In this document: in pieces, positions 6,752 through 63,162 of the stretch
Layout: each line of letters begins with the position of its first letter
Position numbering within the stretch: the stretch's first letter is position 1
Assembly: GCA_026003235.1 (NCBI GenBank)
Contig: BPGW01000001.1
Span: 150,224 to 214,223, forward strand
From: Bacteroidia bacterium
GTDB taxonomy: Bacteria; Bacteroidota; Bacteroidia; SpSt-205
Reading direction: 5' to 3'
Length of the DNA stretch: 64,000 nucleotides
Made by a program: the position numbers and the translations under genes
The notes under the pieces: generated by a model
What the model was told of the DNA's origin: nothing
The model's input: the letters and a program-made list of their open reading frames with translations, nothing else
The model's database searches: none

Positions 6752-8114
6752 CGCCTATGAGCGTAGCAGAAGTGGCTTCCACAATGCGCACTTTTAAGAT
6801 GGTGCTGGGGGGGTAGCGGTCAGCCGCTTGGCGCACCACTACGGCTTGCCCACTGAAAGTGCGCCCGGCCATATCGCGGGGGTCCTTGCGAGCGGGCTTC
6901 TCCAGAAGCGCCAGGTGCACCGTGCCCACTTGCCGCCGATGGCTCTCCAGATTCAGCTCTTGCGCCAGGGCAATCACGCCTTCCAGACGCGCTTTTTTGA
7001 CCTCAAGGGGAACATCGTCTTTGTAGCGGCGGGCAGCCAGGGTCCCAGGCCGTTCCGAATACATGAAGTGGTAGACCGAATCAAAAGCCGCCGCCCGCAT
7101 CAGCGCAAGGGTTTCTTGGTATTCTGCCTCTGTCTCGCCGCAAAAGCCCACAATAATGTCTGTGGAGAGCACCGCCTGCGGTAAGTACCGGCGAATGGCT
7201 TCCACCCGCTGGAGATACCAAGCCGCTGTGTAGCCGCGGTTCATGCGCTGCAGCACGGTGTCGCTCCCAGATTGCACAGGAAGGTGGATGTAAGGGGTGA
7301 GGTTGGGGTAAGAGGCTATGGTTTCCAGCACTTCATCCTGCATGTCTTTGGGGTGGGAGGTGGCGAAGCGAATCCAGACCTGGGGCACCGCTTCGGCCAG
7401 CCGGGCCAGCAGCTGAGCAAAACGCACCCCCCGATCGTGGTATGAATCCACATTCTGGCCCAGCAGGGTGATTTCTTTGTATCCCTTTGCCGCCAGGTCC
7501 TGGGCTTCTTGGAGGATGCTTTCCCAGTTTCGGCTTCTTTCTCGCCCCCGCGTGAAGGGCACAATACAGAAGCTGCACATGTTGTTGCAGCCTCGCATGA
7601 TAGAGATGTAGGCAGAGACCCGATGCGGAGAGAGCCGAAGGGGCGCGATGTCTGCATAAGTTTCCTCCCGTGACAGCAGCACATGAATAGCCTTGGCTCC
7701 GCTTTCTACCTGGCGGATGAGCTGGGGCAGGTGCCGATACGAATCGGGGCCGGCGACCAAGTCTACAACAGGGGCTTCCTCCAGGAGCTTTTTGCGTAGC
7801 CGCTCAGCCATGCAACCCAACACCCCTACCAGCAGGTGGGGGCGCCGTACTTTCAGGGATTGGAAGTATTTTAGCCGCTGCCAGATTTTTTCCTCCGCGT
7901 GCTCCCGAATAGCACAGGTATTCAACAGCACCAGGTCAGCTTCTTGCGGGTCTGTCGTGAAGCCATAACCCTCTGCTTGCAGAATGCCCGCCACCAGCTC
8001 GCTGTCGGCAAAGTTCATCTGGCAGCCGTACGTCTCTATGTAGGCCTTGTACGGAGAAGGGGTAGCCTCTTGGAGGGCAGGCTGCCCAAAAACCCGGGCG
8101 TGGGCCAGTGCCAT
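6720..8114 (-). CDS. miaB: tRNA-2-methylthio-N6-dimethylallyladenosine synthase
   Basis: 464 residues from the ATG at 8114. The N-terminal UPF0004 domain has YGCQMNFADSE, NTCAIREHAEEK and GVLGCMAERL, giving the three Cys of the auxiliary iron-sulfur cluster. The radical-SAM core has CNNMCSFC, and TRAM follows at the C-terminus. The enzyme adds a methylthio group to position 2 of i6A37 in tRNAs. The frame opens further to 8171, but a TACCTTTG -7 box at 8129-8122 lies 7 bases before 8114, so the longer start would precede the promoter. It is the first gene of a six-gene minus operon. Confidence 0.95.
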   Translation of the reverse strand: MALAHARVFGQPALQEATPSPYKAYIETYGCQMNFADSELVAGILQAEGYGFTTDPQEADLVLLNTCAIREHAEEKIWQRLKYFQSLKVRRPHLLVGVLGCMAERLRKKLLEEAPVVDLVAGPDSYRHLPQLIRQVESGAKAIHVLLSREETYADIAPLRLSPHRVSAYISIMRGCNNMCSFCIVPFTRGRERSRNWESILQEAQDLAAKGYKEITLLGQNVDSYHDRGVRFAQLLARLAEAVPQVWIRFATSHPKDMQDEVLETIASYPNLTPYIHLPVQSGSDTVLQRMNRGYTAAWYLQRVEAIRRYLPQAVLSTDIIVGFCGETEAEYQETLALMRAAAFDSVYHFMYSERPGTLAARRYKDDVPLEVKKARLEGVIALAQELNLESHRRQVGTVHLALLEKPARKDPRDMAGRTFSGQAVVVRQAADRYPPSTILKVRIVEATSATLIGDVADPSPVSP

Positions 8115-8732
8115 ATTTTCACAAAGGTAGGAAAAACTTTCATCCTTCTGGGGGGGCTTTTGGCGGCCCAATCTCCTAAAAAGCTCCTTCTGGGGCCGGA
8201 CAGCATTCCGATTTACCTACTGCCCCCTGTGGAGATCGTAGCCGAAGCCCCGCCGCCAGAACGAATCGCCGAAGTGCGCAAGCAGTGGGCGGCCTTTCAG
8301 CGCCTGCGCCGCAACGTCCACCTGGTTTATCCCTTGGCTAAAGAAGCTGCGCGCATCGTGCGAGAAGTAGACAACGAAAGAGCCCGCCTCGGCAAAAAGA
8401 GCCGCGACTACAAGGCTTATAGCCGCCGCCTCAAAAAGGAACTCTTTGACAAATACGAGCCCATTCTGCGGGAGATGACAGTTACGCAAGGTATCCTTCT
8501 AATCAAGCTCATCCACCGCGAGACTGGGGTAGATGCCTATAGCCTGATCAAAGATTACTTAGGAGGCTTGCAGGCAGCTTTCTGGCAAGGTGTAGCCCGG
8601 TTGTATGGTTCAGACCTCAAGCTGACTTATGACCCTGCCCACGAGCCCCTTATAGAGGCCATTATTGAGGAGATTGAGACGGGGAAGAGTGCGGATTGGG
8701 TGCTGGATGTGTATGAAGTGCCGATAGAATGA
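8115..8732 (+). CDS. DUF4294-family exported protein (start codon unclear)
   Basis: About 205 residues; Bacteroidota-specific family of unknown function. The N-terminal stretch KTFILLGGLLAAQS reads as a signal peptide. The mature part matches the family by eye: PPVEIVAEAPPPERI, then helical RNVHLVYPLAKEAARIVREVDNER cut into its pieces, REMTVTQGILLIKLIHRETG and SLIKDYLGGLQAAFW. No ATG, GTG or TTG occurs in frame before the signal peptide. The placed start is an ATT at 8115, one base from the divergent miaB start. GTA at 8127, CTG at 8148 or a sequencing indel are other explanations. The 3' end overlaps the convergent hydrolase by 71 bp. Confidence 0.7.
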   Translation: MFTKVGKTFILLGGLLAAQSPKKLLLGPDSIPIYLLPPVEIVAEAPPPERIAEVRKQWAAFQRLRRNVHLVYPLAKEAARIVREVDNERARLGKKSRDYKAYSRRLKKELFDKYEPILREMTVTQGILLIKLIHRETGVDAYSLIKDYLGGLQAAFWQGVARLYGSDLKLTYDPAHEPLIEAIIEEIETGKSADWVLDVYEVPIE

Positions 8733-10950: not shown

Positions 10951-11807
10951 GGCCAGCGGTGCTGAATTTCTGCAGCGAGGCGCTGCACTTCTGCTTCTAT
11001 GTAGAAGCTGCCCTGCAGCGGGTCTCCCTCGGTGAAGTAAAGCACTTCATACCGGAGGAGATGGCTGATGTTGCGGCTCCAGCGAGGGTATTCGTCACGG
11101 GATGGGTCGCCAATAGGGGGAATGTAAATCGCATGTGCTCCGCCAGCGATAGCTCCCAGGGCATACAGCGTAGCCCGAATGAGGTTTTCTTCTGGTCCTT
11201 CAGCAGGGAGGGTGCCGCGAGGGGTATAGAGGTCTGGCGTGGGTAAGGCCCATATACGCAAAGCAGGATTTTCTGCGGCAAGCCAAACGGCCCTCAGCAA
11301 GATAGCGTTCACGAGCACCCGCTGGTCCAGAAAAAGGGCTACGTCTGTCCCTTGTTGTGGCGAGACGGGAGGCCAGGGCCCCGTGAACTCTAGCTCCAGA
11401 TCGTCAGATAAGGCTACCGGAAGCACCCACACGGGGCGCGCCTGAGGGGGAAGGGGGTGCGTCGTGCGTAGGCATACATACGCTTCGGCCGTAGCGGGCA
11501 GGTCGGATAGCCCCTCTTCGGCCGAGAGGAAAAACCATTTCTGGGCTTGCAGGCCTTCTGATAAAAAGCGCGCATCATAAAGCCACAGATCCACCTCGCC
11601 GGGCACAAACCGCTCGGCTATCACAAGCCAGGGCTCTCTACGGGGAAAGGCGGGCGACGATTCCCACCTTGCCAGGTCCTCCCTCCGGTAGAAGGGAAGA
11701 GGCCTTCCTGCAGGAGGGGGAGCTTTGAGTTCTTGCGCTATGAGGGCCTCCCAACGGGCCCGAGAACCGGGCGGGAAAGTGTCATAGGGACTTTCTGGCG
11801 CTTCCAC
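10947..11807 (-). CDS. Methylmalonyl-CoA mutase small-subunit-like protein, strongly shortened
   Basis: 286 residues from a GTG at 11807, chosen because a TATTTTTG -7 box (11819-11812) ends exactly four bases before it. Starts at 11828 (ATG) or 11840 (TTG) would lie at or before the box. Family features: N-terminal YDTFPPGSRARWEALIAQEL, LPFYRREDL, and a C-terminal block GAIAGGAHAIYIPP with RWSRNISHLLRYEV and GDPLQGSFYIEAEVQRLA. MutA-type subunits are usually 450-650 residues and carry a degenerate cobalamin domain, which is absent here. No large subunit (mutB) is in the window. Function as a mutase subunit is therefore uncertain. Confidence 0.75.
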   Translation of the reverse strand: MEAPESPYDTFPPGSRARWEALIAQELKAPPPAGRPLPFYRREDLARWESSPAFPRREPWLVIAERFVPGEVDLWLYDARFLSEGLQAQKWFFLSAEEGLSDLPATAEAYVCLRTTHPLPPQARPVWVLPVALSDDLELEFTGPWPPVSPQQGTDVALFLDQRVLVNAILLRAVWLAAENPALRIWALPTPDLYTPRGTLPAEGPEENLIRATLYALGAIAGGAHAIYIPPIGDPSRDEYPRWSRNISHLLRYEVLYFTEGDPLQGSFYIEAEVQRLAAEIQHRWP

Positions 11808-11811
11808 ACCA

Positions 11812-11819
11812 CAAAAATA
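11812..11819 (-). promoter_or_regulatory. -7 box TATTTTTG of the mutase-like operon
   Basis: Exact TAnnTTTG on the minus strand, four bases (TGGT) before the GTG at 11807. This decides the start codon. Confidence 0.7.
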
Positions 11820-11852: not shown

Positions 11853-11869
11853 TTGGCACGTATTTTGCT
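11853..11869 (+). promoter_or_regulatory. Sigma-54 (-24/-12) promoter of the WD40-caspase operon
   Basis: TTGGCACG, four bases (TATT), then TTGCT: a full match to the sigma-54 consensus TGGCACG-N4-TTGCW. GG and GC are 12 bases apart, as required. The predicted transcription start is about 11880, five bases before the ATG at 11885. The sigma-54 activator at 5573-6751 is a candidate regulator, but activators act in trans, so this link is inference. Confidence 0.75.
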
Positions 11870-11876
11870 ACCTTTG
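11869..11876 (+). promoter_or_regulatory. -7 box TACCTTTG overlapping the sigma-54 promoter
   Basis: A consensus housekeeping -7 box begins at the last base of the sigma-54 element and ends eight bases before the ATG at 11885. The operon may have two promoters, one constitutive and one activator-dependent. Confidence 0.55.
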
Positions 11877-11884
11877 CTAAAGCT

Positions 11885-12520
11885 ATGCTCACTCGTAGTA
11901 TGTGGGTGGCAGGGCTACTCAGCTTTGTGCTGGCCCAGGCCCCCGATAAGGAAATCAAGCGCGAAATTCAGCGCAAAGCCATCAAAGAAGCCCGAAAGGA
12001 GGCCAAGCGCTTCAAGAAGCAGGGCTTTGATGTAACGCCCGGGTCGCTGCCCATGGAAAAGCAGCTGGAGTACACCTGGATACGGCTTTACCAGCGGGAT
12101 GAGCAAGGGCAGTCGGTGTACCTCAGCGCTGACGGGAACGCCGTGGCTGAGACCCGCACCGCCGCCGAACTCCAGGCTATTGAGGCCGCCAAACTCAACC
12201 TGGCTGGGCAGCTTGAGACCTTCATCCGGGCCATCATTGAAGCCAACATCGCCAACGCCCAGCTCAACACCGAAGAAGCGACTTCCGTCACCGAGTTCCT
12301 GGCCGGGGCTAAAAATGTCATTGTAACCACGCTGGGCCAGGTGGAGCCCGCCTTCAAGATTTACCGAAACCTCCCCAACAAGAATGTGGAGGTCAATGTC
12401 AAGCTGCTGGTGAATCGCGATCAGGTGCTTCTCCAGGCCAAGAAGCAAGTCCGAGATGAGCTGAGAGAGCGGCTTAAGGGGCTCCAGCACAAAGTGGATA
12501 AGCTCCTACCGCTGCAATGA
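11885..12520 (+). CDS. Exported protein of unknown function, first gene of the WD40-caspase operon
   Basis: 211 residues from the ATG at 11885; the frame extends upstream to 11849 but that lies before the promoters. The N-terminus LTRSMWVAGLLSFVLAQA is a signal peptide. Next comes a very basic helix (EIKREIQRKAIKEARKEAKR). The middle has VAETRTAAELQAIEAAKLNLAGQL, which recalls LPP20-like or flagellar-assembly-type lipoproteins, but there is no lipobox Cys. The second half alternates strands and helices and ends in a charged helix. I do not recognise a family with confidence. The stop overlaps the next ATG by 4 bp. Confidence 0.7.
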   Translation: MLTRSMWVAGLLSFVLAQAPDKEIKREIQRKAIKEARKEAKRFKKQGFDVTPGSLPMEKQLEYTWIRLYQRDEQGQSVYLSADGNAVAETRTAAELQAIEAAKLNLAGQLETFIRAIIEANIANAQLNTEEATSVTEFLAGAKNVIVTTLGQVEPAFKIYRNLPNKNVEVNVKLLVNRDQVLLQAKKQVRDELRERLKGLQHKVDKLLPLQ

Positions 12521-15213: not shown

Positions 15214-15221
15214 TACCTTCG
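15214..15221 (+). promoter_or_regulatory. Near-consensus -7 box TACCTTCG
   Basis: One mismatch from TAnnTTTG; four bases (CACC) separate it from the GTG at 15226, the same spacing seen at other genes here. Confidence 0.45.
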
Positions 15222-15225
15222 CACC

Positions 15226-15702
15226 GTGAAGCGGGCTACGTTCTGGGCGGCCGCGGTGGCTTTGCTGGGAAGCCTGTGCGCCCTTTCGTTGTTTTTGCCT
15301 CAGTTTCGCATCCAGGTCTGGGATACCAGCCAAAGCGGCTACCTCTACTTCTGGGGGGGCCATGAGAAGTTTCGGGCTACCGTGTCAGGATGGGTCTACG
15401 GGATAGCGGCCTTATGGGCTATCGCCGGCGTAGGGGGTCTGATGCGGGCGGCCTGGCTCCTGAAAAAAGGCCAAAGAGCTGCCATCGCTTGGCTCAACTG
15501 GGCCGCTTTCTTCCTTGCGATGCAGCTGACTTTTCTGCTCGTAGCCGCTGAAGAGGTCCTTACCGACCTGCGTGTGGCCAGCTTGCATGCGGACAGCTTT
15601 GCGCAGGTGGGCAGCTGGACGCCTTTCGTCGTGTTTCTTGCCCTGCTTTTCCTGCCGGGGCGGGTAAAGAAGGCCCTCTTCTCTACGCCGAAGTCGGCCT
15701 GA
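15226..15702 (+). CDS. Four-helix membrane protein (DUF4293-like layout)
   Basis: 158 residues from a GTG. Four hydrophobic segments lie at about 5-25 (FWAAAVALLGSLCALSLFL), 55-75, 90-110 and 125-145. A short extracytoplasmic loop with two aromatic-rich strands lies between the first two. The layout resembles the small Bacteroidota DUF4293 proteins, but this is a by-eye comparison and no catalytic motif is visible. The GTG start is supported by a TACCTTCG box four bases upstream. It lies 13 bp after the caspase gene and 10 bp before lpxB. Confidence 0.7.
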   Translation: MKRATFWAAAVALLGSLCALSLFLPQFRIQVWDTSQSGYLYFWGGHEKFRATVSGWVYGIAALWAIAGVGGLMRAAWLLKKGQRAAIAWLNWAAFFLAMQLTFLLVAAEEVLTDLRVASLHADSFAQVGSWTPFVVFLALLFLPGRVKKALFSTPKSA

Positions 15703-16840: not shown

Positions 16841-16848
16841 TATCTTTG
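16841..16848 (+). promoter_or_regulatory. -7 box TATCTTTG of smc
   Basis: Consensus TAnnTTTG; four bases (ACCT) before the GTG at 16853. Confidence 0.7.
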
Positions 16849-16852
16849 ACCT

Positions 16853-19800
16853 GTGCGGCTGCGTAGCCTGGAGCTGCGGGGCTTCAAGAGTTTTGCTGAA
16901 CCGGTTCGGCTGCCCTTTTCCGCCCGGCTTATCGGGATCGTAGGCCCCAATGGCTGCGGCAAATCCAACATCGCCGACGCCCTGCGCTGGATTGTAGGCG
17001 AACAGAAAAGCCGCCTCCTCCGCATTGAGAAGGCCGATAACCTTATCTTCAACGGCAGCGCCCGCCGAAAGCCCTTGCCCTTCGCTGAGGTTTCCTTGGA
17101 AGTGGAGGATTTTTCGCCCGAACTGCCCCATCTGGTTTTTACCCGTCGTGTCTACCGGGGAGGAGAGGTGGAGTACTTCCTCAACGGCGGTGCAGTACGG
17201 CTGCGGGATTTTCTCGCTTATTTCTGGCAGATGGGGCTGAGTGCCCATGGCATCCTGGATGGTGGCTGGGTGGAAGCGCTTATCCACGATCGGGGAGGAG
17301 CCCGACGGGCCCTCCTGGAATCCCTGGCAGGCATTGAACGCTACCATCATCACAAGAAAGAAGCTTTAGCTGAGCTGGAAAAAACGCGGCAGGCGCTTTC
17401 GCAGGTGGAAGCTCTTCTGGCCCAGCTCAAGGAGCAGACCCAAGAGCTAACTCGGCAGGCTCAGAAAGTAGAAACCTACAAATCCCTCAAAGAGGCGTAT
17501 CGCTCGCTTCTGGCAAGCTGGATAGCGCAGGAGCTGGCCGAGCTTGAAAAGCTTGAGCGGCGTTATGCAGAGCAGCAGCAAGCCCATGAGGCAGCCCTCG
17601 CCGCGCTACAAGACGAAATTCAGCTTCTGGAAAAGCAGATAAAAGACCTTCACGCCCAGGAACAGGCTTTGGATCCTACTCTTCTTGAGGCCACTTGGCG
17701 GGCTCTGCAAGATCGCTATCAGGCCCTTCGTCAGGAGGAGAGCACCCTCAAGGAGCGGCAAGCCCAGCTGGCCCTTCAGCTGAGCCAGCTGGAGGAGGAA
17801 ACGACCCATCGGCGGCAGCAGCAGACCGAACTTTCCTCGGAAGAAGCGACCCTGCTGGAGCAGCGGCTGCAGCGAGAGAAGGCCTACGAAGCAAGCTTAC
17901 AGGCCCTTTCCGCGCTTCAGCAGCGGTCTGAGGCCCTCTTGGCTCAGCTGAAGCAGCGACAAACGCTTCAAGCAGAGTACGAAACCCAACTCAAACAGGC
18001 TGCGCAGACCCTGGCCCAGTTAGAGCGGCAGCAGCAAGGCCTCTCCTCCCAGAAGGAAGCTATGATGGCCCAGGTTCGGCACCTTCAGGACGAAGCAGCG
18101 GCCGTCGTAGCCCGTCTGCAGGCCCTGGAGGGCGAGGTGGTCAGCTTACAGCAGCGGCAAGCTGCCCTCCAGGCGCAGTACACCGAAGCGCAGCGCATGC
18201 GGGAAAAGCTCTTGAAGGAGCAGCAAGCCTTGGCTTCGGAAAAGCGTCGCCTTGGGGAGGTCCTGCAGGGCCTCCAAAGCAAGCTGGAGCGGATCCGGCT
18301 TGAGAAGGAAGCTACAGAAGACATTCTGGCTCGGGCGGAGGGGTGGCCCGCTTATTTGGCTGAGCTACGGCGCCAGGGAATAGAGTTCTGGCGGACCGAG
18401 GACCTCTTCTGGGCTGAGGAAGCGGATATGCCTGTGCTGGGCACGCTTTTACGGCTGGAGCCGCCTACCCTCTGGGTGCGATCGCAAGAAGCGGCCCAGC
18501 GACTTGATGCCTTTCTCTCTGGGAAGCACGAGGGTTTCTTGGGCGTGCGGGTGTGGGCCGATTCGTCGGCTCCTTCCCCGCAGGGCTGGCTGAAAAGGGT
18601 GCAGGCTTTGCCGGGGTTTTCAGGGCTGGCGTTCCACCTCTGGCACGATGTGGAAGTAGGAGAAGCCCCCCAACCAAACAAACGAGTTGTGACCCCCGAT
18701 GGGCGCCGGGTGTACTTGAGCGATGGGTGCATTTATCACCTCTCCCCGGTGCAGACGACCCATATCGGTTTGCCCCATCGCCTGGAGCGCCTAAGCCTGC
18801 AGCAGCGCGCCTGCCAACTTAAGGTGGATTATCTGCGAGCTTCGTTGGCCGCTGTAGAGAGGAGGCTGGAACGGCTTCCGCTGGCTCCGTGGCAAAGCCG
18901 CCTCCAAACGCTGGCTCCCCTCCTAAGCGAAGTAGAAAAAGCCCTCATGGCCCTTGAAGTCAAGCGAGAGGAACTGAATCGCCAGAAGGATCTTTTTTCT
19001 GCCCGTGTTGAAAGTACGCTTGGTCAAATAAGGGAGCTGGAGGAAAAAATCACGGCGCTTGCGCCCCAAATAGAAGAAGCTCGCACCCAGCACACGACGT
19101 GGACGCAGGCCCTTCATGCCCTGGAGGCGGAGGTAGCGACGCTCACTCAGCAGCGGGAGGCCCTTCATCCTCAGCTTACGGAGGCTCGGGTGCAGGTAGC
19201 CCGGGCTGAAAACGACTTGAAAGCTTTGCAAAAAACCACTAGGCTTATCTCCCAGCAGCACGAGGAGGTGCGCAAACGGCTGGCTTGGCTTGCCCATAGA
19301 AAGGAAAGCCTGGAAGGGCAGATCGGGGAGGTGACCCAACGGCTTGAAACGATCGCGGCCGAAAGGGCGCAGCTTGCTTCCCAGCTTGAAGAGGTAGAAG
19401 CCCGTCTGCACAAAGAGAGAGAACGCAAGAAGCAGCTGGAGGAGCAGCTGGACCCCCTTCGCACGGAGATGGCGCAAAAAAGGAAGCGGTATCAGGAGCA
19501 TGAGCTGGCCTTGGCGCGTCTGGAGGCCCGCCAGACCGAAGTGCGCCAAAAACGGGCAGCGCTCCAGCAGCGCCTGGCCGTAGAAGCAGAAATGCGGATA
19601 CAGGATTTACCCCCTCCCCCCTCATTAGCCCTGAAGGACGAAGAGGTAGAGAGGCGTCTACTGCACATCAAAGAGCGCATAGCAGCGCTGGGCGAACTCA
19701 ACTTTGAGGCCGTGACGACCCTGCAAGCTCTGCGCGAGCGAGAAGAGACCCTTCTGCGGGAAAAAAACGATGTAGAAAGCACCCTCCTTCAGCTACAGGC

Positions 19801-20931: not shown

Positions 20932-20939
20932 TTACTTTG
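20932..20939 (+). promoter_or_regulatory. Near-consensus -7 box TTACTTTG
   Basis: One mismatch from TAnnTTTG, ending four bases (TCGC) before the ATG at 20944; probable promoter of the envelope cluster. Confidence 0.45.
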
Positions 20940-20943
20940 TCGC

Positions 20944-21801
20944 ATGCGTACCCTTAGAGTATATGCAGGGGTCCTGCTCATGGGCACGCTCTTGTATGGG
21001 CAGCGTGGTGCGTACAAGAGTTATCTGGCGCTGGGCCCTTCTGTAGGTATTACCAATTACAAAGGGGACTTAGACGATGACTTCACCATCAAGTTCACCA
21101 AGCCAGGCTTGGGCTTCAACTTGATTTACAACTTTCATCCTCACCTGCGAGCTCGCCTGGGGTTTTTCCAGGGGTGGATGGGCGCAGCGGATTCGGTAAG
21201 CGTAGACCGCTTCCGCAAGTGGCGTAATCTCTCCTTCCGCTCCCACATTACTGAGTTTAGTTTGCAGTTTATCTACGAATTTTTTGCCTCTCCGCGCTTG
21301 TATCGTTTTCGTCCTAAATTCTCCCCTCTTATTTTTGCTGGGGTGGCTGTCTTCAACTATGACCCTAAAGCGAAAGCCAGCGATGGAAACTGGTACCGGC
21401 TCCAGCCGCTGGGCACCGAGGGGCAATTCCTCAATGACCCCACCCGTACCTATCCGAAGCCTTATGCGCTTACTCAGATTTCTATCCCGATGGGCATAGG
21501 CGCCCGATGGACGCTAAGTACGCGATGGGACCTGTGGTTTGAGCTGGGGCTGCGCAAGACTTTTACCGATTACCTGGACGATGTGAGCGATCGCTATCCG
21601 CCTCCCAGCTTGATGCTGGCCCAGATGGGCCCTATTGCAGCTGAGCTTTCAGACAGAAGCGGCTACCGGGCACAAGGTAGTAGCGGGTATGACGCCAACG
21701 ATGTACGGGGCTTTGTGAACCAGAAAGATTGGTATGTTTACACGGGTATAGGCGTGACGTACATCATTGATCCAGGTGAGCGCTGTCCGAAGTTTCGCTG
21801 A
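20944..21801 (+). CDS. DUF6089-like outer-membrane beta-barrel protein
   Basis: 285 residues with a signal peptide (LRVYAGVLLMGTLLYGQ). The mature part shows alternating aromatic strands typical of a small outer-membrane barrel: YLALGPSVGITNYKGDL, LGFNLIYNFHPHLRARLGFF, FSPLIFAGVAVFNYDP, and a final WYVYTGIGVTYII. In Bacteroidota a DUF6089 protein commonly precedes uppS and bamA, as here, which supports the name. Its role is not established; it may assist outer-membrane assembly. The stop overlaps the uppS ATG by one base. Confidence 0.8.
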   Translation: MRTLRVYAGVLLMGTLLYGQRGAYKSYLALGPSVGITNYKGDLDDDFTIKFTKPGLGFNLIYNFHPHLRARLGFFQGWMGAADSVSVDRFRKWRNLSFRSHITEFSLQFIYEFFASPRLYRFRPKFSPLIFAGVAVFNYDPKAKASDGNWYRLQPLGTEGQFLNDPTRTYPKPYALTQISIPMGIGARWTLSTRWDLWFELGLRKTFTDYLDDVSDRYPPPSLMLAQMGPIAAELSDRSGYRAQGSSGYDANDVRGFVNQKDWYVYTGIGVTYIIDPGERCPKFR

Positions 21802-25467: not shown

Positions 25468-25475
25468 TACCTTTG
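25468..25475 (+). promoter_or_regulatory. -7 box TACCTTTG of the second ompH gene
   Basis: Consensus box, four bases (CCCA) before the ATG at 25480; an internal promoter within the envelope cluster. Confidence 0.65.
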
Positions 25476-25479
25476 CCCA

Positions 25480-26103
25480 ATGCCGCACTACATGCGAGTA
25501 ACGGGGCTGCTCGTGCTTTTGTCCTGCACGAAGCCCGCCGTGTCTCCAGCCCAGTCTACCCCAAAGACCTTGCGGATCGGTTACACGAACTTGGAGCTGG
25601 TCTTAAGTTACCTGCCAGAAGCCCAACAGGTTGAGCAGCAGCTGCGCACATACGAAAAGAAGGTGATTGAGCAGCTCAATATCAAGCAAAGCTACCTCCA
25701 GACGAAAATAGAAGAGTACACCGAACTCAAACAATCTGGCAAGCTCACCCCCGCACAGGAAGAAGAGCGAAGGAAAGAAATCATGCGTCTGGATGAGGAA
25801 ATCAAGCGTTTCCAAGAGGAGTCGGAGCAGAACTACTTGAAGAAGAAGGCCGAACTCCTGCAGCCTATCGTGGAAAGGCTTCAAAAGGCTATAGACGAGC
25901 TGGCAGCGGCCGAGGGGTACGACTACATCTTGAATAATTCCAATTCAACGGGTGTGGCGTTTATTTTGCACGGGCCGAAAGGGGACGATGTGACGGAGCG
26001 GCTCCTAAAGCGCTTGGGGGTAGACACCAGCAAAATCCAGCGCCCGGATACCACGGGTGGGCCTAAGGCAGCACCGGCGTCGCCTTCCGCCCCGAAAAAG
26101 TGA
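25480..26103 (+). CDS. OmpH/Skp-family chaperone (second copy), probable lipoprotein
   Basis: 207 residues. The N-terminus has a short hydrophobic stretch ending in LLVLLSC, a plausible lipobox. This is followed by IGYTNLELVLSYLPEAQQVE, a long helical hairpin (about 60-150) and the conserved strand YDYILNNSNSTGVAFIL. A Pro/Ala-rich tail replaces the usual C-terminus. Tandem OmpH copies after bamA are normal in Bacteroidota. The first ATG fits the -7 box spacing; ATG at 25492 is an alternative. The stop overlaps murI by 4 bp. Confidence 0.88.
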   Translation: MPHYMRVTGLLVLLSCTKPAVSPAQSTPKTLRIGYTNLELVLSYLPEAQQVEQQLRTYEKKVIEQLNIKQSYLQTKIEEYTELKQSGKLTPAQEEERRKEIMRLDEEIKRFQEESEQNYLKKKAELLQPIVERLQKAIDELAAAEGYDYILNNSNSTGVAFILHGPKGDDVTERLLKRLGVDTSKIQRPDTTGGPKAAPASPSAPKK

Positions 26104-27650: not shown

Positions 27651-27654
27651 GCGG

Positions 27655-27662
27655 CAAAGTTA
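27655..27662 (-). promoter_or_regulatory. -7 box TAACTTTG of the hydroxylase-like gene
   Basis: Consensus box on the minus strand, four bases (CCGC) before the ATG at 27650. Confidence 0.65.
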
Positions 27663-27699: not shown

Positions 27700-27707
27700 T
27701 ATCTTTG
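27700..27707 (+). promoter_or_regulatory. -7 box TATCTTTG of the PhoD-type phosphatase gene
   Basis: Consensus box, four bases (GGTC) before the ATG at 27712. It shares a 61-base divergent spacer with the minus-strand box at 27662-27655. Confidence 0.7.
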
Positions 27708-27711
27708 GGTC

Positions 27712-29599: not shown

Positions 29600-29607
29600 T
29601 ATCTTTG
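29600..29607 (+). promoter_or_regulatory. -7 box TATCTTTG of the DUF697-SHOCT gene
   Basis: Consensus box, four bases (TCTG) before the ATG at 29612. Confidence 0.65.
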
Positions 29608-29611
29608 TCTG

Positions 29612-40181: not shown

Positions 40182-40185
40182 CTGG

Positions 40186-41317: not shown

Positions 41318-41321
41318 GGTG

Positions 41322-41329
41322 CAAAGGTA
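41322..41329 (-). promoter_or_regulatory. -7 box TACCTTTG of the collagen-like lipoprotein gene
   Basis: Consensus box on the minus strand in the 22-base gap after alaS, four bases (CACC) before the ATG. Confidence 0.65.
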
Positions 41330-43937: not shown

Positions 43938-43941
43938 GAGG

Positions 43942-43949
43942 CAAAAATA
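43942..43949 (-). promoter_or_regulatory. -7 box TATTTTTG of alaS
   Basis: Consensus box on the minus strand, four bases (CCTC) before the alaS ATG at 43937. Confidence 0.7.
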
Positions 43950-43983: not shown

Positions 43984-43991
43984 TATATTTG
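43984..43991 (+). promoter_or_regulatory. -7 box TATATTTG of the PorE-like gene
   Basis: Consensus box seven bases before the ATG at 43999. Confidence 0.6.
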
Positions 43992-43998
43992 CGGTGGC

Positions 43999-46330: not shown

Positions 46331-46338
46331 TATATTTG
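46331..46338 (+). promoter_or_regulatory. -7 box TATATTTG of the acyl-CoA ligase gene
   Basis: Consensus box, four bases (CAGC) before the ATG at 46343 and nine bases after the rnpB P1 helix. Confidence 0.7.
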
Positions 46339-46342
46339 CAGC

Positions 46343-49684: not shown

Positions 49685-49692
49685 TACCTTTG
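49685..49692 (+). promoter_or_regulatory. -7 box TACCTTTG of atpE
   Basis: Consensus box eight bases before the ATG at 49701. It gives atpE its own promoter inside the operon and argues against the longer reading from 49674. Confidence 0.6.
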
Positions 49693-49700
49693 CCCCCGAT

Positions 49701-49940
49701 ATGTGGTTAGAAGCAGGTAGCACAGTTCAGTACTTGGGCGCTGCTCTGGGCGCGGGTATCGCTGCCATTGGAGCAGGTATAGGGATTGGTACACTTGCCT
49801 CTGCAGCGTTGCAAGGCATTGCACGGCAACCCTCGGCCGCCGGCGAAATTCGCAACAACATGATCCTCACGGCGGCCCTCATTGAAGGGGTTGCCCTGAT
49901 TGCCGAGGTGGTCGCCATTCTCGTTATTTTCCTCAAGTAA
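49701..49940 (+). CDS. atpE: F-type ATP synthase subunit c
   Basis: 79 residues forming two helices: GAALGAGIAAIGAGIGIGTL then the polar loop GIARQPSAAGEIR and the second helix AALIEGVALIAEVVAIL, with the ion-carrying Glu. The residues after Glu (Gly-Val) look proton-type, not sodium-type, by comparison with known Na+ rings. No atpF, H, A or G follows; a strong hairpin ends the block. Confidence 0.95.
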   Translation: MWLEAGSTVQYLGAALGAGIAAIGAGIGIGTLASAALQGIARQPSAAGEIRNNMILTAALIEGVALIAEVVAILVIFLK

Positions 49941-49989: not shown

Positions 49990-49997
49990 TATTTTTG
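49990..49997 (+). promoter_or_regulatory. -7 box TATTTTTG of the MCE-domain gene
   Basis: Consensus box directly abutting the terminator stem, six bases before the ATG at 50004. Confidence 0.65.
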
Positions 49998-50003
49998 TAC
50001 CTA

Positions 50004-50948
50004 ATGAAGCTGCGCCTCTCCCGAGAAGCTCAACTGGGCCTAATCGCCGCAGGAGCGGCTGTAGGCCTCTTTTTCGGCCTGAACTACCTCAAGGGGCACT
50101 CCGTCTTTCAGCGGTACAACACCTACTATGCCGTCTTTGAAAACGCCGACAACCTCTCCACCAGTGACAAAGTCTTGTACCGAGGCTATAAGGTGGGGCA
50201 GGTTCAGGAACTCCGCTTCAATCCCCGCACAGGCCAGGTGCTCATTGGGTTTGAGGTGCTGCGGGAGATACCCCTTCCCATAGACAGCCGGGCTACCATC
50301 ACCAACCTAGACCTCTTGGGCACTAAGGGGCTCTGGCTGGTGCCGGGGACGGCTTCTCGGCTGGCGACCGATGGCGATACCCTTCTTGATAGCTTGGCTA
50401 CGGGCACCTTTGATAAGGTCCTTCAGGAAGTGCGCCCTGTCAAAGAGAAGCTGGAGCAGCTTCTGACCCAGCTCAACCAGACGGCTACCCATCTGAATGC
50501 CCTCCTGGATGCGCGCAGCGGGGCTATCCCTCAGACGCTGGGTTCGGTGCGGACCCTGGCCGACCGAACCGGCGCCGAATTAGCCCCCACCGCCGCCCAC
50601 CTTCGTCACACGCTGGCCGAACTGGACCAAACCTTGACCGAACTCCGCCCTCGCCTCAGCCAGACCCTGCAGAGCGTGGAACGGCTCACAGATTCCACGG
50701 GGCAGCGGCTTCCCGGCCTGGTAGCGCGACTGGACTCGTCCGCGGCGCAGCTTCACACCACCCTCGCCGCCCTCAACGAAGGCCAAGGGTCCCTGGGCCT
50801 CCTCCTGCGCGATTCCTCCCTCTATCGCGACCTGGACAAAACGACCGTGAGCTTGCGCTTGCTTTTGGATGAGCTGCGCTTGCGACCCGAACGGTTCGTA
50901 CACTTCTCTATTTTTGGGCGTCGTCCCCGTTCGCAAGCCGATGAGTGA
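50004..50948 (+). CDS. MCE-family (MlaD-like) lipid-transport protein
   Basis: 314 residues from the ATG at 50004. One N-terminal membrane helix (QLGLIAAGAAVGLFFGLNYL), then an MCE domain (about 35-120: YYAVFENADNLSTSDKVLYR, GYKVGQVQELRF, TITNLDLLGTKGLWLVPG) and a long helical region (130-290) rich in Leu, Thr and Gln. MlaD-like proteins carry phospholipids between the membranes with an MlaE/MlaF ABC transporter, which is not in the window. The stop overlaps purM by 8 bp. Confidence 0.88.
   Translation: MKLRLSREAQLGLIAAGAAVGLFFGLNYLKGHSVFQRYNTYYAVFENADNLSTSDKVLYRGYKVGQVQELRFNPRTGQVLIGFEVLREIPLPIDSRATITNLDLLGTKGLWLVPGTASRLATDGDTLLDSLATGTFDKVLQEVRPVKEKLEQLLTQLNQTATHLNALLDARSGAIPQTLGSVRTLADRTGAELAPTAAHLRHTLAELDQTLTELRPRLSQTLQSVERLTDSTGQRLPGLVARLDSSAAQLHTTLAALNEGQGSLGLLLRDSSLYRDLDKTTVSLRLLLDELRLRPERFVHFSIFGRRPRSQADE
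50909..50916 (+). promoter_or_regulatory. Possible -7 box TATTTTTG upstream of purM
   Basis: Consensus box inside the MCE gene, 24 bases before the purM ATG at 50941; could be chance. Confidence 0.35.
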
Positions 50949-52092: not shown

Positions 52093-52100
52093 TACCTTTG
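52093..52100 (+). promoter_or_regulatory. -7 box TACCTTTG upstream of yceI
   Basis: Consensus box in the 147-base purM-yceI gap; five bases before an ATG at 52106 that opens a 44-codon frame, and 121 bases before the yceI ATG. Confidence 0.6.
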
Positions 52101-52105
52101 CGAAA

Positions 52106-52240
52106 ATGCAATCTACCCCCCCTTCTTTGGCTTACCTGTTTCTGCGTAGTACTCGGAGGAAGAGAGGTTGCGGGGAGGCTTTTTGTTTCTGGGATGCGCA
52201 AAAACCAACCTTTATAAGGATATGCTGCGACGACTGCTAA
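52106..52240 (+). CDS. Possible 44-residue leader ORF upstream of yceI
   Basis: ATG five bases after a -7 box; the peptide is basic and Cys-rich near its end (GCGEAFCF, ICCDDC). It stops 19 bases past the yceI start, in another frame. It could be a leaderless leader peptide whose translation opens yceI, or simply part of a 5' untranslated region. There is no homology evidence. Confidence 0.3.
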   Translation: MQSTPPSLAYLFLRSTRRKRGCGEAFCFWDAQKPTFIRICCDDC

Positions 52241-54483: not shown

Positions 54484-54491
54484 TACCTTTG
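54484..54491 (+). promoter_or_regulatory. -7 box TACCTTTG of the outer-membrane protein gene
   Basis: Consensus box three bases (TGC) before the ATG at 54495. Confidence 0.65.
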
Positions 54492-54494
54492 TGC

Positions 54495-55151
54495 ATGCGA
54501 CCCTTGCTACTTAGTGTGGGTGTTTTGCTTCTACATGCGCAAGAGGCTAAGTCTACCTGGTATGCGCCTAAGTTTGGGCTGAACTGGGGGCAGTATCGCA
54601 CCCGCGATATAGAAGACATCTCGTCGCGCTCGTACTGGGGTGGGGGTTTTTATGGGGGGCTGGCTCTGCAGCAGGCGCTGGACCTGAAGGGAAGGTGGGC
54701 CGTGCAAGGCGAGCTGGGTGTGACGCAGCGCCGCTCTACCGACCGCAATCTCTTGACTGACTGGCGGTACAACCTCTGGAGTGCCGATCTGGCTGTGCTG
54801 GGGGTATGGCGATGGGTCAGAAAATTTGAGGCCTTTTTCGTGGAGGCAGGCCCCTCCTCCAGCCTGCTGATATACGGCAAGTACTGGGAGCGTTCTAACC
54901 TCACAGATGAAGTTCAAACCCGCACCGTACAATTTGGGCGAGGCGCCGGCCGCGATGTGCGACGAGGTGAGATCGCTTGGAATGCCGGTGTCGGGGCTGG
55001 GTACCTCGCAGGGCCAGGCTATTTGACTTTTGGGCTGCGCGTCTGGCATGGACTGAACAACCTGGCTGCTGGTGGTCTCTTTCAGCGATGGAACAACTAT
55101 GGCGTCCTCATGACGCTGGCTTACTGGTACGATGACTCCCTCCGGGAATAA
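54495..55151 (+). CDS. Predicted outer-membrane beta-barrel protein
   Basis: 218 residues from the ATG at 54495. Signal peptide RPLLLSVGVLLLHAQ. The mature part alternates amphipathic strands with Gly and aromatic residues (APKFGLNWGQYRTRDIEDIS, GGGFYGGLALQQAL, WAVQGELGVTQRRS, GVGAGYLAGPGYLTFGLRVW), ending in a Tyr/Trp-rich strand. This fits a small PorT- or OmpW-like barrel, but no family is certain. The end overlaps the MazG gene by 20 bp. Confidence 0.72.
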   Translation: MRPLLLSVGVLLLHAQEAKSTWYAPKFGLNWGQYRTRDIEDISSRSYWGGGFYGGLALQQALDLKGRWAVQGELGVTQRRSTDRNLLTDWRYNLWSADLAVLGVWRWVRKFEAFFVEAGPSSSLLIYGKYWERSNLTDEVQTRTVQFGRGAGRDVRRGEIAWNAGVGAGYLAGPGYLTFGLRVWHGLNNLAAGGLFQRWNNYGVLMTLAYWYDDSLRE

Positions 55152-58151: not shown

Positions 58152-58159
58152 TACCTTTG
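58152..58159 (+). promoter_or_regulatory. -7 box TACCTTTG of the first glycosyltransferase gene
   Basis: Consensus box, four bases (AGAG) before the GTG at 58164; this supports GTG as start. Confidence 0.65.
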
Positions 58160-58163
58160 AGAG

Positions 58164-59339
58164 GTGGTACAGGTAGTCCTTCTCACCGGCCCCGGCAGCT
58201 ATGTACACCTCCTCCAGGCCATCCTTGCCCAGCAGAAGCGACTCCATACCGTTTTTGAGTACTACCCTTCTTGGGCGCTTGTCCAGCCTCTCACAGGCAG
58301 GAAGTACGGCTTGTGGGGGTATAAATCGTTCATCAAAGCCCTCTGGGCAGTAGGACGCCGGCTTCCCTACTATCGCCGGTACAACCCTCACCGCTACTGG
58401 GAATACCAACTTTATGACTTTGTGTGCCGGCTGCATTTGCCTAAGGGTGTGCCTATTTTGTGGGCCTGGAGTCAGACCAGCCTGTACACTATGAAGGAAG
58501 CTCGTAAGCGTGGGATGAAGGTACTCTTGGAGCTGCCTGCCTCTCATCCCACCGTATGGGAAGAGACTGTGCAAAAGGCCTACGCAGCTTTTGCGTCGGC
58601 TCGTACAGGATACGCTTTCTATTTGCCAGCTCACCGTCGTCGCATAGAAGAGGAATTGGAAGTGGCCGATCGCATCCACGTGCTTTCTTCCTTTGTGCAG
58701 CTACAGCTTCTGCGGCAGGGCATTCCTGCGGAAAAAGTGCGCCTTTTACCCTTAGGAGTGGACGCGAGGCATTTTTCTCCGCCCGCTGAGCCGCCCCCTT
58801 CTCGGCCTTTTCGGTTTCTTTATGTAGGGCGTCTGGAGCCGCTCAAAGGGGTCCATCTCCTGCTGGAAGCCTTTCACCGGCTGCGATGGCCGAAGGAATC
58901 GGCAGAACTTTGGCTGGCTGGACCCATAGTAGAAGAGATGGAGCCGGTACTGCGTCGCTATGCTGACCATTTTGTCTACAAAGGCACCTGGGAGCGGGCT
59001 TACCTGCCTGAGCTGTACCGCCAAGCGCATGCTTTCGTTTTTCCTACCCTGCTGGATTCGTTTGGGTTGGTGCTCTTAGAGGCGATGGCCTGCGGCCTAC
59101 CTGTGATAGCCACAAGCCATTCCGCTGCACCGGATCTCGTTACAGAGGGAAAGGATGGGTATGTGGTTCCGCCTTTTTCGGTAGAGGCCCTCATGGAGGC
59201 CATGGAAAAGCTATACCGGATGCCTCTGGAGGAGCGCCTGGCCATGGGCTACGCCGCCCGTCAAAAGGTGGAATCAGCCTGGACGCTGACCCATTACGCA
59301 GAGCGGATAGCTGCCTACCTTGCCGAGTATGAGCTGTGA
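58164..59339 (+). CDS. Glycosyltransferase family 4 protein
   Basis: 391 residues from a GTG. GT-B fold: the C-terminal half has FRFLYVGRLEPLKGVHLLLE (nucleotide-sugar site), AELWLAGPIVEEME, FVYKGTWERAYLPELYRQAH and FVFPTLLDSFGLVLLEAMAC (EX7E motif), then GLPVIATSHSAAPDLV. It transfers a sugar from a nucleotide donor, probably to a surface glycan or exopolysaccharide. Donor and acceptor are unknown. The second glycosyltransferase overlaps its end by 11 bp. Confidence 0.9.
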   Translation: MVQVVLLTGPGSYVHLLQAILAQQKRLHTVFEYYPSWALVQPLTGRKYGLWGYKSFIKALWAVGRRLPYYRRYNPHRYWEYQLYDFVCRLHLPKGVPILWAWSQTSLYTMKEARKRGMKVLLELPASHPTVWEETVQKAYAAFASARTGYAFYLPAHRRRIEEELEVADRIHVLSSFVQLQLLRQGIPAEKVRLLPLGVDARHFSPPAEPPPSRPFRFLYVGRLEPLKGVHLLLEAFHRLRWPKESAELWLAGPIVEEMEPVLRRYADHFVYKGTWERAYLPELYRQAHAFVFPTLLDSFGLVLLEAMACGLPVIATSHSAAPDLVTEGKDGYVVPPFSVEALMEAMEKLYRMPLEERLAMGYAARQKVESAWTLTHYAERIAAYLAEYEL

Positions 59340-60402: not shown

Positions 60403-60410
60403 TACCTTTG
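60403..60410 (+). promoter_or_regulatory. -7 box TACCTTTG of the E2 gene
   Basis: Consensus box, four bases (TGCT) before the ATG at 60415. Confidence 0.7.
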
Positions 60411-60414
60411 TGCT

Positions 60415-61776
60415 ATGGTGGAGGTCCTCCTGCCCAAGATGGGCGAGAGCGTCATGGAAGCCCGCATCATCCGCTGGCTCAAGAAGCCCGGCGACCCGGT
60501 CGAGGCGGATGAACCGATTTTAGAAATCGCCACAGACAAGGTGGATTCTGAAGTGCCTGCTCCGGTTTCGGGGATCCTGCAGGAGATTCGCGTCCAGGAG
60601 GGGGCTACGGTGCCGGTAGGCACGGTTTTAGCCCTTATTGCCCAGGCTGGCGAGGCGACTCCCCCTTCTGCGACCCAGGCTAAGCCAGAACCTGCCCTCT
60701 TGCAAGAGGTAGAGAGCCCCACCAGCTCCCCCACCGCTGGCAACGGGCATTCCATGCCTGAGCGGATCCCCGCCCGGCATGGCGACCGCTTTTATTCTCC
60801 CCTCGTGCGAACCATCGCCCAGCAGGAGGGCATTTCCCTCGCTGAACTAGAAAAAATCCCCGGCACCGGCGCTGGAGGACGCGTCACCAAAAACGACCTC
60901 TTGGCTTACCTGGAAACCCGAAAGGCCGCCCCACTTGCGCCTTCTGCTCCCACACCTACACCGGCAACGCCAGTTCCGACTGCGGTCCCGGCTTCCATCC
61001 AGGAGATTATCGCTTACCTGCAAGAGCATTTTATCCTGGTGCCCAAAAAGAAGTTCACCCACGGTGAAGCGGCTGAAATCATAGAAATGGACCGCATGCG
61101 GCGCCTGATTGCGGAAAATATGGTCTATTCCAAGCATGTCTCCCCTCATGTAACCAGCTTCGTAGAGGCGGATGTCACCCCGGTGGTTTTGTGGCGAGAA
61201 AAGGTCAAAGAGGAGTTTGAACGCAAGTACGGCGAAAAGCTGACTTTCACCCACCTCTTTGTGGAGGTGCTGGCGAAGGTTTTGCGAGAGTTTCCTCAGC
61301 TCAACGCTTCAGTAGAAGGGGACCGAATCCTTCTCAAGAAGGAGATTCACATTGGGGTAGCGGTAGCGCTGCCTACCAACAACTTGATTGTGCCGGTGGT
61401 GCGGCATGCCGATCGGCTTAACTTGGCGGGGATTGCGACGGCGGTGAATGACCTTTCGCGACGGGCTCGGGCCGGCCAGCTCAAGCCCGACGAGATTGTG
61501 GGGGGTACCTACACCCTCTCTAATGTGGGCACTTTTGGGAATGTGATGGGCACGCCGGTGATTCTCCAGCCCCAGGTGGCGATCCTGGCCACGGGGGCCA
61601 TCCGCAAGAAACCCGCCATCATTGAAACCCCAGCCGGCGATATGATCGGGGTGCGGTACATGATGTTTCTTTCCCACTCCTACGACCATCGGGTGATAGA
61701 CGGGGCGTTGGGAGGCGCCTTTGTGCGGCGGGTGGCCGACCTACTGGAAGCCTGGGATGTGAACCGGGTGCCTTAG
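60415..61776 (+). CDS. 2-oxoacid dehydrogenase E2 (dihydrolipoamide acyltransferase)
   Basis: 453 residues: one N-terminal lipoyl domain with the lipoylated Lys in EIATDKVDSEVPAPVSG; an E3-binding domain (SPLVRTIAQQEGISLAELEK, GRVTKNDLLAYLE); a Pro/Ala/Thr linker; and the catalytic domain with VSPHVTSFVEADVTPVVLWR and the active-site SHSYDHRVIDGALGGAF. It accepts the acyl group from E1 and passes it to CoA. Pyruvate, branched-chain and 2-oxoglutarate types share these motifs, so the substrate is open. It may pair with PdhB (1685-2668). Confidence 0.93.
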   Translation: MVEVLLPKMGESVMEARIIRWLKKPGDPVEADEPILEIATDKVDSEVPAPVSGILQEIRVQEGATVPVGTVLALIAQAGEATPPSATQAKPEPALLQEVESPTSSPTAGNGHSMPERIPARHGDRFYSPLVRTIAQQEGISLAELEKIPGTGAGGRVTKNDLLAYLETRKAAPLAPSAPTPTPATPVPTAVPASIQEIIAYLQEHFILVPKKKFTHGEAAEIIEMDRMRRLIAENMVYSKHVSPHVTSFVEADVTPVVLWREKVKEEFERKYGEKLTFTHLFVEVLAKVLREFPQLNASVEGDRILLKKEIHIGVAVALPTNNLIVPVVRHADRLNLAGIATAVNDLSRRARAGQLKPDEIVGGTYTLSNVGTFGNVMGTPVILQPQVAILATGAIRKKPAIIETPAGDMIGVRYMMFLSHSYDHRVIDGALGGAFVRRVADLLEAWDVNRVP

Positions 61777-61797
61777 TTTTGGCCAGGCGTAAGGGCG

Positions 61798-61805
61798 TAT
61801 CTTTG
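61798..61805 (+). promoter_or_regulatory. -7 box TATCTTTG of glyA
   Basis: Consensus box, four bases (TTAT) before the ATG at 61810. Confidence 0.7.
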
Positions 61806-61809
61806 TTAT

Positions 61810-63162
61810 ATGCAAGATGCCGTTTTCGGCTGGATAGAAGCGGAGCGCCGCCGCCAGGAAGAGGGCCTTGAACTCATCGCTTCGGAAAATTACGCCAGCC
61901 CTGCGGTGCTTGCGGCTTTGGGTTCGGTCCTCACCAACAAGTACGCTGAGGGCCTCCCAGGGCGGCGGTACTATGGAGGGTGTCAGTACGTAGATGAGGT
62001 GGAAAAGCTGGCCCAAGAGCGGGTGAAGGCCCTTTTTGGAGCGGTCTGGGCCAATGTCCAGCCTCATTCGGGTGCCCAAGCCAACGAAGCCGTGCTTCTG
62101 GCCTTGCTCAAACCCGGAGAAAAGCTTTTGAGCTTTGAGCTGGCGCATGGCGGCCACCTTACCCATGGCAGCCCTCTCAACTCCTCTGGTAAACTCTACA
62201 CCGTCCAACATTACGGCGTACGGCCAGACACCTACCGGCTTGATTACGACCAGGTCCGAGACAAAGCCCGCAGCTTTCGCCCGAAAGTCCTCCTGGCAGG
62301 GGCCAGCAGCTATCCTCGCGACTGGGACTGGAAGGCCCTTCGGGAAATCGCTGACGAAGTAGGCGCCTTCCTCGTAGCGGATATAGCCCATCCCGCTGGC
62401 TTGATTGCAGCCGGCCTTTTGAACAATCCCTTGCCTTACTGTCATGTGGTCACCAGCACCACCCATAAGACCTTGCGAGGTCCCCGAGGAGGGATCCTCC
62501 TGATGGGTCAGGACTTTGAGAATCCCTTTGGGGAGCGGACCCCTCGCGGCGAACTCAAAAAAATGAGTGCGCTGTTGGATGGGGCCCTCTTCCCTGGGGT
62601 GCAGGGTGGCCCTCACATGCACGTCATCGCCGCCAAAGCCGTGGCCTTCGGCGAAGCGCTCCAACCTTCCTTCCGCACCTATGCGCAGCAGGTTATCCGA
62701 AACGCACAAGCCCTTGCTGAAGCTCTTATTGAACGGGGGTACACCGTCCTTACAGGCGGCACAGACAACCACATCGTCCTGGTAGACCTGCGTAACAAGG
62801 GTATCACGGGCCGGGAGGCCGAACGCGGCCTGGAAAAAGCCGGTATAACCGTCAATAAGAACCTGATTCCTTACGATCCGCAGCCTCCTCTGGTAGCCAG
62901 TGGGATTCGGTTAGGCACGCCGGCCCTTACCAGCCGGGGCTTTCTTGAAGAGGATTTTCGGCAGGTGGCCCTTTGGATAGACCAGGCGCTGGCTTCTCTG
63001 CACGACGAAACGCGCCTCACACAGATAAGAGAAGAGATCAAGGCTTACCTGCAGGCCTATCCCCTTCCCTATGGGCCTGCCGCGCCGAGAAGCCTGGGAC
63101 ACGCCCCCGAACCTGTCGGATCATCCGCCCCACCGTACCCCGATCGGCCTGTCGGAAAGTAA
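61810..63162 (+). CDS. glyA: Serine hydroxymethyltransferase
   Basis: 450 residues. [53 protein letters not shown], the PLP Lys in [19 protein letters not shown], and a C-terminal [19 protein letters not shown]. It converts serine and tetrahydrofolate to glycine and methylene-THF, feeding purine synthesis. It is ~20-30 residues longer than usual. The extra tail (Pro/Ala-rich, after about residue 420) is exactly the part overlapping the convergent transporter by 125 bp, so the extension may come from loss of an earlier stop. Confidence 0.96.

Follow-up and report, generated by a model that had tools for sequence, protein, structure and literature searches.

Start-adjacent TAnnTTTG boxes point to leaderless or nearly leaderless mRNAs in a family of Bacteroidia

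Introduction

Promoters with a –7 element have been described in Bacteroides thetaiotaomicron, Flavobacterium johnsoniae and Flavobacterium psychrophilum (PMC7366714, PMC6847099, PMC9723704), and these sources give the same box as the one considered here, TAnnTTTG, with mean or median leaders of 24–65 nt and a leaderless or short-leadered fraction of 3.7–13%. In B. thetaiotaomicron, 3.7% of leaders are reported to be under 10 nt (PMC7366714), the leaderless fraction in F. psychrophilum is given as 5.5% (PMC9723704), and in F. johnsoniae 87% of leaders exceed 10 nt, leaving ~13% of 10 nt or less (PMC6847099). Here, we analyzed a stretch of 64,000 nt from a Bacteroidia bacterium of the GTDB order SpSt-205 (contig BPGW01000001.1, positions 150,224 to 214,223, assembly GCA_026003235.1; hereafter the window), in which TAnnTTTG boxes abut the start codons of many genes. 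In contrast to the mapped species, 113 of 143 leading genes that possess an exact box have it 3–8 bases before a start codon in three genomes of the little-studied family to which this bacterium belongs, and it is highly likely that messages transcribed from such boxes have no leader or one of only a few bases.

Promoters adjoining the start codon are known from other phyla. In the leaderless genes of Deinococcus-Thermus, as presented in PMC12340547, a core promoter element adjoins the start, a ribosome-binding site is lacking and one example begins with GTG, all of which is likewise seen here; the element there is a –10 motif, whereas here it is TAnnTTTG, in a phylum that for the most part already lacks Shine-Dalgarno sequences. 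Mycobacterial leaderless mRNAs are reported in PMC4633059 to have ATG or GTG, not TTG, at the 5' end, which the scarcity of TTG described below matches, although mycobacteria differ from the present family in both promoter and ribosome. A 2011 survey limited to Pribnow-like signals detected leaderless genes in 1 of 37 Bacteroidetes/Chlorobi genomes; its text cautioned that the share in Bacteroidetes might be underestimated and considered a high hidden share unlikely (PMC3160421). Our literature search on leaderless mRNA in Bacteroidota, which covered open-licence papers, yielded, among the papers listed, no mapped lineage with predominantly leaderless starts. Leaderless mRNA itself is known, and it is its prevalence in a Bacteroidota family, arising from a Bacteroidota box, that seems to be new. 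Uncommon in the mapped Bacteroidota, it looks dominant in this family and would arise from a box that is not Pribnow-like. The family would thus offer a natural experiment in leader loss within a phylum that hardly uses Shine-Dalgarno sequences, with leadered relatives for comparison, and TAnnTTTG-N4/5-RTG should be usable as a start-codon finder in its genomes.

Results

Boxes are concentrated four bases before ATG and GTG

The two strands of the window together contain 37 exact matches to TAnnTTTG, compared with 19.3 expected from shuffles, and 13 of these boxes were followed after exactly four bases (N4) by a start codon, which was ATG in 10 cases, GTG in 3 and TTG in none. Given the window's own frequency of ATG and GTG, only 0.95 such cases were expected (Poisson P = 3.3e-11). 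A preliminary description of this DNA, made from the sequence alone, had listed 13 such starts, and each of them does have the exact box, the N4 spacing and ATG or GTG (Table 1). Two one-mismatch boxes that it placed at N4 are also real (TACCTTCG-CACC-GTG at 15226 and TTACTTTG-TCGC-ATG at 20944), as are eight boxes lying 3–8 bases from their starts; a ninth, at N5 before the start at 2668, lies outside the range that it had covered. Its total of 23 start-adjacent boxes shifts in both directions, because 24 boxes have ATG or GTG at 3–8 bases and two of these (19846 and 21330) are intragenic, leaving 22 plausible ones. We could also reproduce its remark that GTG starts are picked (3 of the 13 in the window and 79 at N4 genome-wide), and its remark that the four intervening bases show no Shine-Dalgarno pattern: at N4 they are C-rich, A-poor and without clear pattern.

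The same spacing was strongly enriched elsewhere in the source genome, whose assembly comprises 2.06 Mb in 11 contigs and is ~82% complete. We sampled 400 kb beyond the window as 20 stretches of 20 kb placed on a grid, in which 54 of 200 boxes had ATG or GTG at N4 (46 ATG, 8 GTG, no TTG), compared with 5.2 expected (P = 1e-35). The corresponding counts were 22, 9, 12 and 10 at N5, N6, N7 and N8, and single positions farther off reached up to 11. When sites with an open frame were counted in the window and the sample together, N4 to N8 gave 63, 21, 8, 15 and 8 sites, against a mean of 3.1 at positions 40–60 and a maximum of 8 at positions 9–30, so that the excess is clear for spacings of 4, 5 and 7 and only weak for 6 and 8. 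No comparable peak was found in the 400-kb sample for the reversed motif, TAnnTTTC, TTnnTTTG or CAnnTTTG. The genome-wide distribution of box-to-start distances is therefore not flat; it has a sharp peak at 4 and a second class at 5, and the same two features were observed in two further sampled family genomes.

The codon that follows the spacer is selective as well. Over the whole source genome, ATG, GTG and TTG occurred at N4 in 190, 79 and 4 cases, and the reversed controls gave 2, 4 and 4. Summed over 12 family genomes (11 of one genus, including the source genome, and one of another), the counts were 2023, 813 and 161, with controls of 116, 90 and 70.

Box-adjacent starts in leading genes

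We further analyzed starts assigned by a gene caller that was blind to the box, restricting the count to leading genes in which an exact box lay no more than 102 bases away; genes cut by the edge of a stretch or without a neighbor by which they could be judged were dropped from all gene-based counts. With starts as called, the box lay 3–8 bases upstream (near) in 38 of the 66 leading genes of the source genome. After a revision that allowed an in-frame ATG or GTG between the box and the called start, which favors 'near' in every genome, the count rose to 51 of 66, and two other family genomes gave 34/41 and 28/36. Four outgroups from the same class, revised in the same manner, gave 0/16, 0/8, 2/21 and 4/17. 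The family and the outgroups thus differ strongly (113/143 versus 6/62; Fisher's test, P = 2e-21). The source genome and one family genome were sampled on a grid, and 6 of the 20 regions of the other family genome lie on contigs with an N4 match. In the source genome, control motifs gave near/far counts of 2/1 (TAnnTTTC), 5/3 (CAnnTTTG) and 0/2 (reversed), compared with 51 near for the true box.

The caller placed 44 starts at N4 in sequence that holds 63 open-frame N4 sites, a difference that would be expected if some box-adjacent starts were wrong, the true starts lay downstream and the leaders were of ordinary length. However, in the box-adjacent frames the first residue covered by a Pfam match is 3 (SMC, E2), 4 (SHMT, transketolase) or 7 (AlaRS), and the N-termini of orthologues align up to the first residues. 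In addition, 63 open ATG or GTG frames at exactly four bases contrast with ~3 per position at 40–60. Misassigned starts are accordingly an extremely unlikely explanation of the spacing.

Spread over the family and the phylum

Each of the 12 family genomes contained 133–223 N4-ATG matches, with controls of 2–23. Among 395 genomes drawn from the phylum, which included the source genome and none of the other family members, the source genome had the largest excess over its control (188), and the runner-up, judged by eye, had an excess of 99 in a genome of 4.2 Mb. Some excess was also found in other Bacteroidota, for example in Pedobacter duraquae (168 versus 75), which agrees with published leaderless shares of a few per cent in the phylum. 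A start-adjacent box is not a general rule of Bacteroidota. The lineage presumably stems from hot springs.

In the sister family, represented by one genome, the whole-genome N4-ATG count was 50, compared with 39 in the control. After revision the box was near in 28 of 51 leading genes, a gene-based count that is biased towards N4, as most of the contigs were chosen for having an N4 match. Boxes in this N4-biased sample were seen 5–8 and also 20–30 bases before starts, an apparent intermediate state, to judge from this sample.

The spacing is conserved in orthologous genes

We compared the upstream regions of four genes in the family, the counts including the source genome. For alaS, all 11 family genomes that have the 5' end carry an exact box, at N4 in 9 and at N5 in 2; outside the family, a box was found in 5 of 9 genomes, at 22 (sister family), 24, 38, 61 and 84 bases. 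All 11 family members also have a reversed box, CAAAnnTA, 16–49 bases upstream of alaS. For smc, the box is exact in all eight family orthologues with enough upstream sequence, a ninth being cut at a contig end; four have N4 and four N5, and the start codon is GTG in five and ATG in three. For glyA, 9 of 11 family genomes have an exact box (N4 in 8, N5 in 1), and the other two have a box with one mismatch at N4. Outside the family, 6 of 9 genomes have a box before glyA, from 10 (sister family) to 36 bases away.

A larger set of 80 named glyA records contained 6 from family genomes already counted, which are not independent; of the 74 others, one lacked a start. A box was present in 35 of the non-family records, at 15–80 bases in 32 and at 5 bases in 3. 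The latter are all Hymenobacter, three species of which have TACCTTTG-N5-ATG at glyA, and near-leaderless promoters may have arisen again in that genus.

For rpsU, which 11 family genomes possess, an exact box was found in 9 of the 10 genomes read (N6 in 7, N5 in 1, N7 in 1), and the tenth has a box with one mismatch. In class outgroups the box lies at 24–50 bases in 7 of 8, one of which has GGAGG before the start; no box was seen before rpsU in the sister-family genome. Where relatives outside the family have a box, it thus lies at 10–84 bases, the three Hymenobacter records (5) excepted. As judged by eye, family upstream DNA outside the box is strongly divergent, save for an element in alaS, and both the box and its spacing, being constant within divergent surroundings, look as if they were held by selection.

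Predicted transcript starts and leader lengths

In F. johnsoniae, 4–5 bases separate the box from the transcription start site (TSS), according to PMC6847099. With this spacing, transcription of N4 genes would start at the first base of the start codon (A or G), and that of N5 genes either there or one base upstream. Whatever the exact +1, a promoter that ends k bases before the start can leave a leader of at most k bases. The sequence around the predicted TSS is consistent with this: in the source genome, 48 of 63 N4 sites have a pyrimidine immediately before the start, and a purine stands at the fifth position behind the box at 14 of 21 N5 sites and 12 of 15 N7 sites. Such a pattern is expected if +1 is fixed and transcription initiates on a purine, which would leave 0, 1 or 3 bases of leader. 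The middle positions of the box are G-poor (10% and 6% G), as is the middle of the F. johnsoniae consensus TAHHTTTG given in PMC6847099. When 52 N4 genes were inspected by eye for a special –33 element, no clear motif was apparent upstream of the box, only a mild richness in A and T around –20 to –15.

We infer from these patterns that the box is a promoter in use, and we propose the following model. Each TAnnTTTG box would serve as a –7 element for the housekeeping sigma factor of Bacteroidota, and in this family the promoter would have been shifted up against the coding sequence. RNA polymerase would begin on the first base of ATG or GTG at N4, there or one base earlier at N5 and a few bases earlier at N6–N8. 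Translation would then begin at a 5'-terminal or nearly terminal AUG or GUG, without upstream contacts, and the longer leaders of other Bacteroidota would be gone at most consensus promoters of the family. The distance peak, the published spacing, the preference for ATG and GTG and the orthologues all support the initial prediction that transcripts start at or next to the start codon, and for many genes of the family the 5' end of the message very probably coincides with this codon or lies only a few bases from it.

Could the box instead act in translation, as a Kozak-like or S1-type site within a leader that is transcribed from farther upstream? The box is T-rich, and PMC6847099 describes initiation in F. 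johnsoniae as modulated by upstream bases. The motif is, however, identical to the sigma box, near-miss and reversed motifs produce no peak, and outside the family the same motif lies 10–84 bases from the same genes, again excepting Hymenobacter. The upstream adenine enrichment of a Kozak-like Bacteroidota leader was not seen in 52 N4-ATG genes, in which A is depleted to 12, 6, 4 and 8% at positions –4 to –1; in the 20 bases before leading genes of the four class outgroups, A makes up 16–54%. Finally, TTG at N4 equals its reversed control in the source genome (4 and 4), which a leadered signal would not require. We consider a translation signal very unlikely, and return to the interpretation of the box as a start-adjacent promoter.

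Under that interpretation, the gap of only 3–8 bases between box and start goes together with the absence of a Shine-Dalgarno sequence. Autoregulation of bS21 through a strong Shine-Dalgarno sequence at rpsU is described in PMC9976891 for ~80% of Flavobacteriales, nearly all Sphingobacteriales and no Bacteroidales. The box at family rpsU leaves no room for such a sequence, so that bS21 regulation through a site of this kind seems to be absent; this lack of room is notable, but not unique. Loss of bS21 was considered as a cause and rejected, because PF01165 matched in 20 of 21 genomes searched, including 11 of 12 of the family. A search for the 3' end of 16S rRNA, where the anti-Shine-Dalgarno CCUCC would be expected, in 13 genomes of the order (RF00177 and a degenerate pattern) found none, RF00177 having matched only 9 of 14 control genomes. 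No 16S rRNA gene turned up in any of these assemblies, one of which consists of a single contig; the genes may have escaped assembly.

A broader scenario is that the whole family dropped its 5' untranslated regions at most consensus housekeeping promoters, rpsU included, that leaderless or nearly leaderless initiation became the default, that the ancestor was already free of Shine-Dalgarno sequences and that the sister family is part-way. We regard this scenario as quite possible, falling just short of probable.

Boxes farther upstream and additional promoters

Several observations weigh against the start-adjacent promoter model. An exact box within 102 bases was present in only 66 of 182 leading genes, which does not fix the leaderless share of all transcripts; 51/182 is accordingly a tally of near-start consensus promoters, not a share of leaderless transcripts. 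Even among the 66, the box lies farther off in 15, or in 28 without start revision. The pyrimidine bias at –1 is weaker in the two other family genomes (17/26 and 14/25), and rpsU, mostly at N6, has C as the fifth base in the cases read, so that +1 may be spaced differently there. Family-wide, TTG at N4 exceeds its reversed control (161 versus 70) while remaining far below GTG (813 versus 90); it is rare, not absent. In addition, glyA in the window is preceded by two exact boxes, the second and farther of which, TAGTTTTG, lies 28 bases from the start codon.

This second box, like the 15 leading genes with a box farther upstream, could reflect a mixed architecture, in which a gene has at least one upstream promoter besides the adjacent box and is translated to a large extent from leadered transcripts. 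It is common for bacterial genes to have dual promoters. Nevertheless, when the 100 bases upstream of glyA, alaS, smc and rpsU were inspected in the family (40 stretches), a further exact box in the same orientation occurred in only one, that of the window's glyA, in a search confined to exact boxes and not extending to degenerate or alternative-sigma promoters. Moreover, genomes outside the family show a single visible box farther off, as would be expected if the distance shrank and no box was added. A mixed architecture therefore appears unlikely, though it deserves some weight, and we retain the start-adjacent promoter as the preferred explanation.

Features of the window

Table 1. TAnnTTTG boxes and associated start codons in the window (coordinates within the 64,000 nt; Nk, k bases between box and start codon; aa, amino acids; ORF, open reading frame)
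Element	Position	Strand	First base of start codon	Gene or remark
TATTTTTG-N4-GTG	11805..11819	-	11807	Protein with partial MM_CoA_mutase match
TATCTTTG-N4-GTG	16841..16855	+	16853	SMC; Pfam SMC_N match from residue 3
TACCTTTG-N4-ATG	25468..25482	+	25480	OmpH-like protein
TAACTTTG-N4-ATG	27648..27662	-	27650	Asp/Arg hydroxylase-domain protein; divergent from 27712
TATCTTTG-N4-ATG	27700..27714	+	27712	PhoD-like phosphatase with C-terminal sorting domain
TATCTTTG-N4-ATG	29600..29614	+	29612	DUF697 protein
TATCTTTG-N4-ATG	40179..40193	-	40181	Beta-propeller-type protein (Lactonase/Cytochrom_D1 matches)
TACCTTTG-N4-ATG	41315..41329	-	41317	205-aa protein, without Pfam match
TATTTTTG-N4-ATG	43935..43949	-	43937	Alanyl-tRNA synthetase (alaS)
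TATATTTG-N4-ATG	46331..46345	+	46343	AMP-binding enzyme
TACCTTTG-N4-GTG	58152..58166	+	58164	Glycosyltransferase
TACCTTTG-N4-ATG	60403..60417	+	60415	2-oxoacid dehydrogenase E2; lipoyl-domain match from residue 3
TATCTTTG-N4-ATG	61798..61812	+	61810	Serine hydroxymethyltransferase (glyA)
TAGTTTTG, second exact box	61774..61781	+		28 bases before glyA start; possible upstream promoter
TACCTTCG-N4-GTG, one mismatch	15214..15228	+	15226	158-aa protein
TTACTTTG-N4-ATG, one mismatch	20932..20946	+	20944	DUF6089/OMP barrel
TACCTTTG-N7-ATG	8112..8129	-	8114	Radical SAM UPF0004 protein
TACCTTTG-N8-ATG	11869..11887	+	11885	
TATTTTTG-N7-ATG	31385..31402	+	31400	
TATATTTG-N7-ATG	43984..44001	+	43999	OmpA/TPR protein, divergent from alaS
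TACCTTTG-N8-ATG	49685..49703	+	49701	79-aa ORF
TATTTTTG-N6-ATG	49990..50006	+	50004	MlaD protein
TACCTTTG-N5-ATG	52093..52108	+	52106	ORF of 44 aa only
TACCTTTG-N3-ATG	54484..54497	+	54495	OMP beta-barrel
TAACTTTG-N5-ATG	2666..2681	-	2668	Transketolase-type protein; Pfam match from residue 4

The divergent pair formed by alaS and the OmpA/TPR gene (43935–44001) has 34 bases between its two boxes. At 52093–52250, the 44-aa ORF behind an N5 box extends into the region where a longer ORF begins in a different frame, and this short ORF may represent a leader peptide, a small gene or a frameshift.

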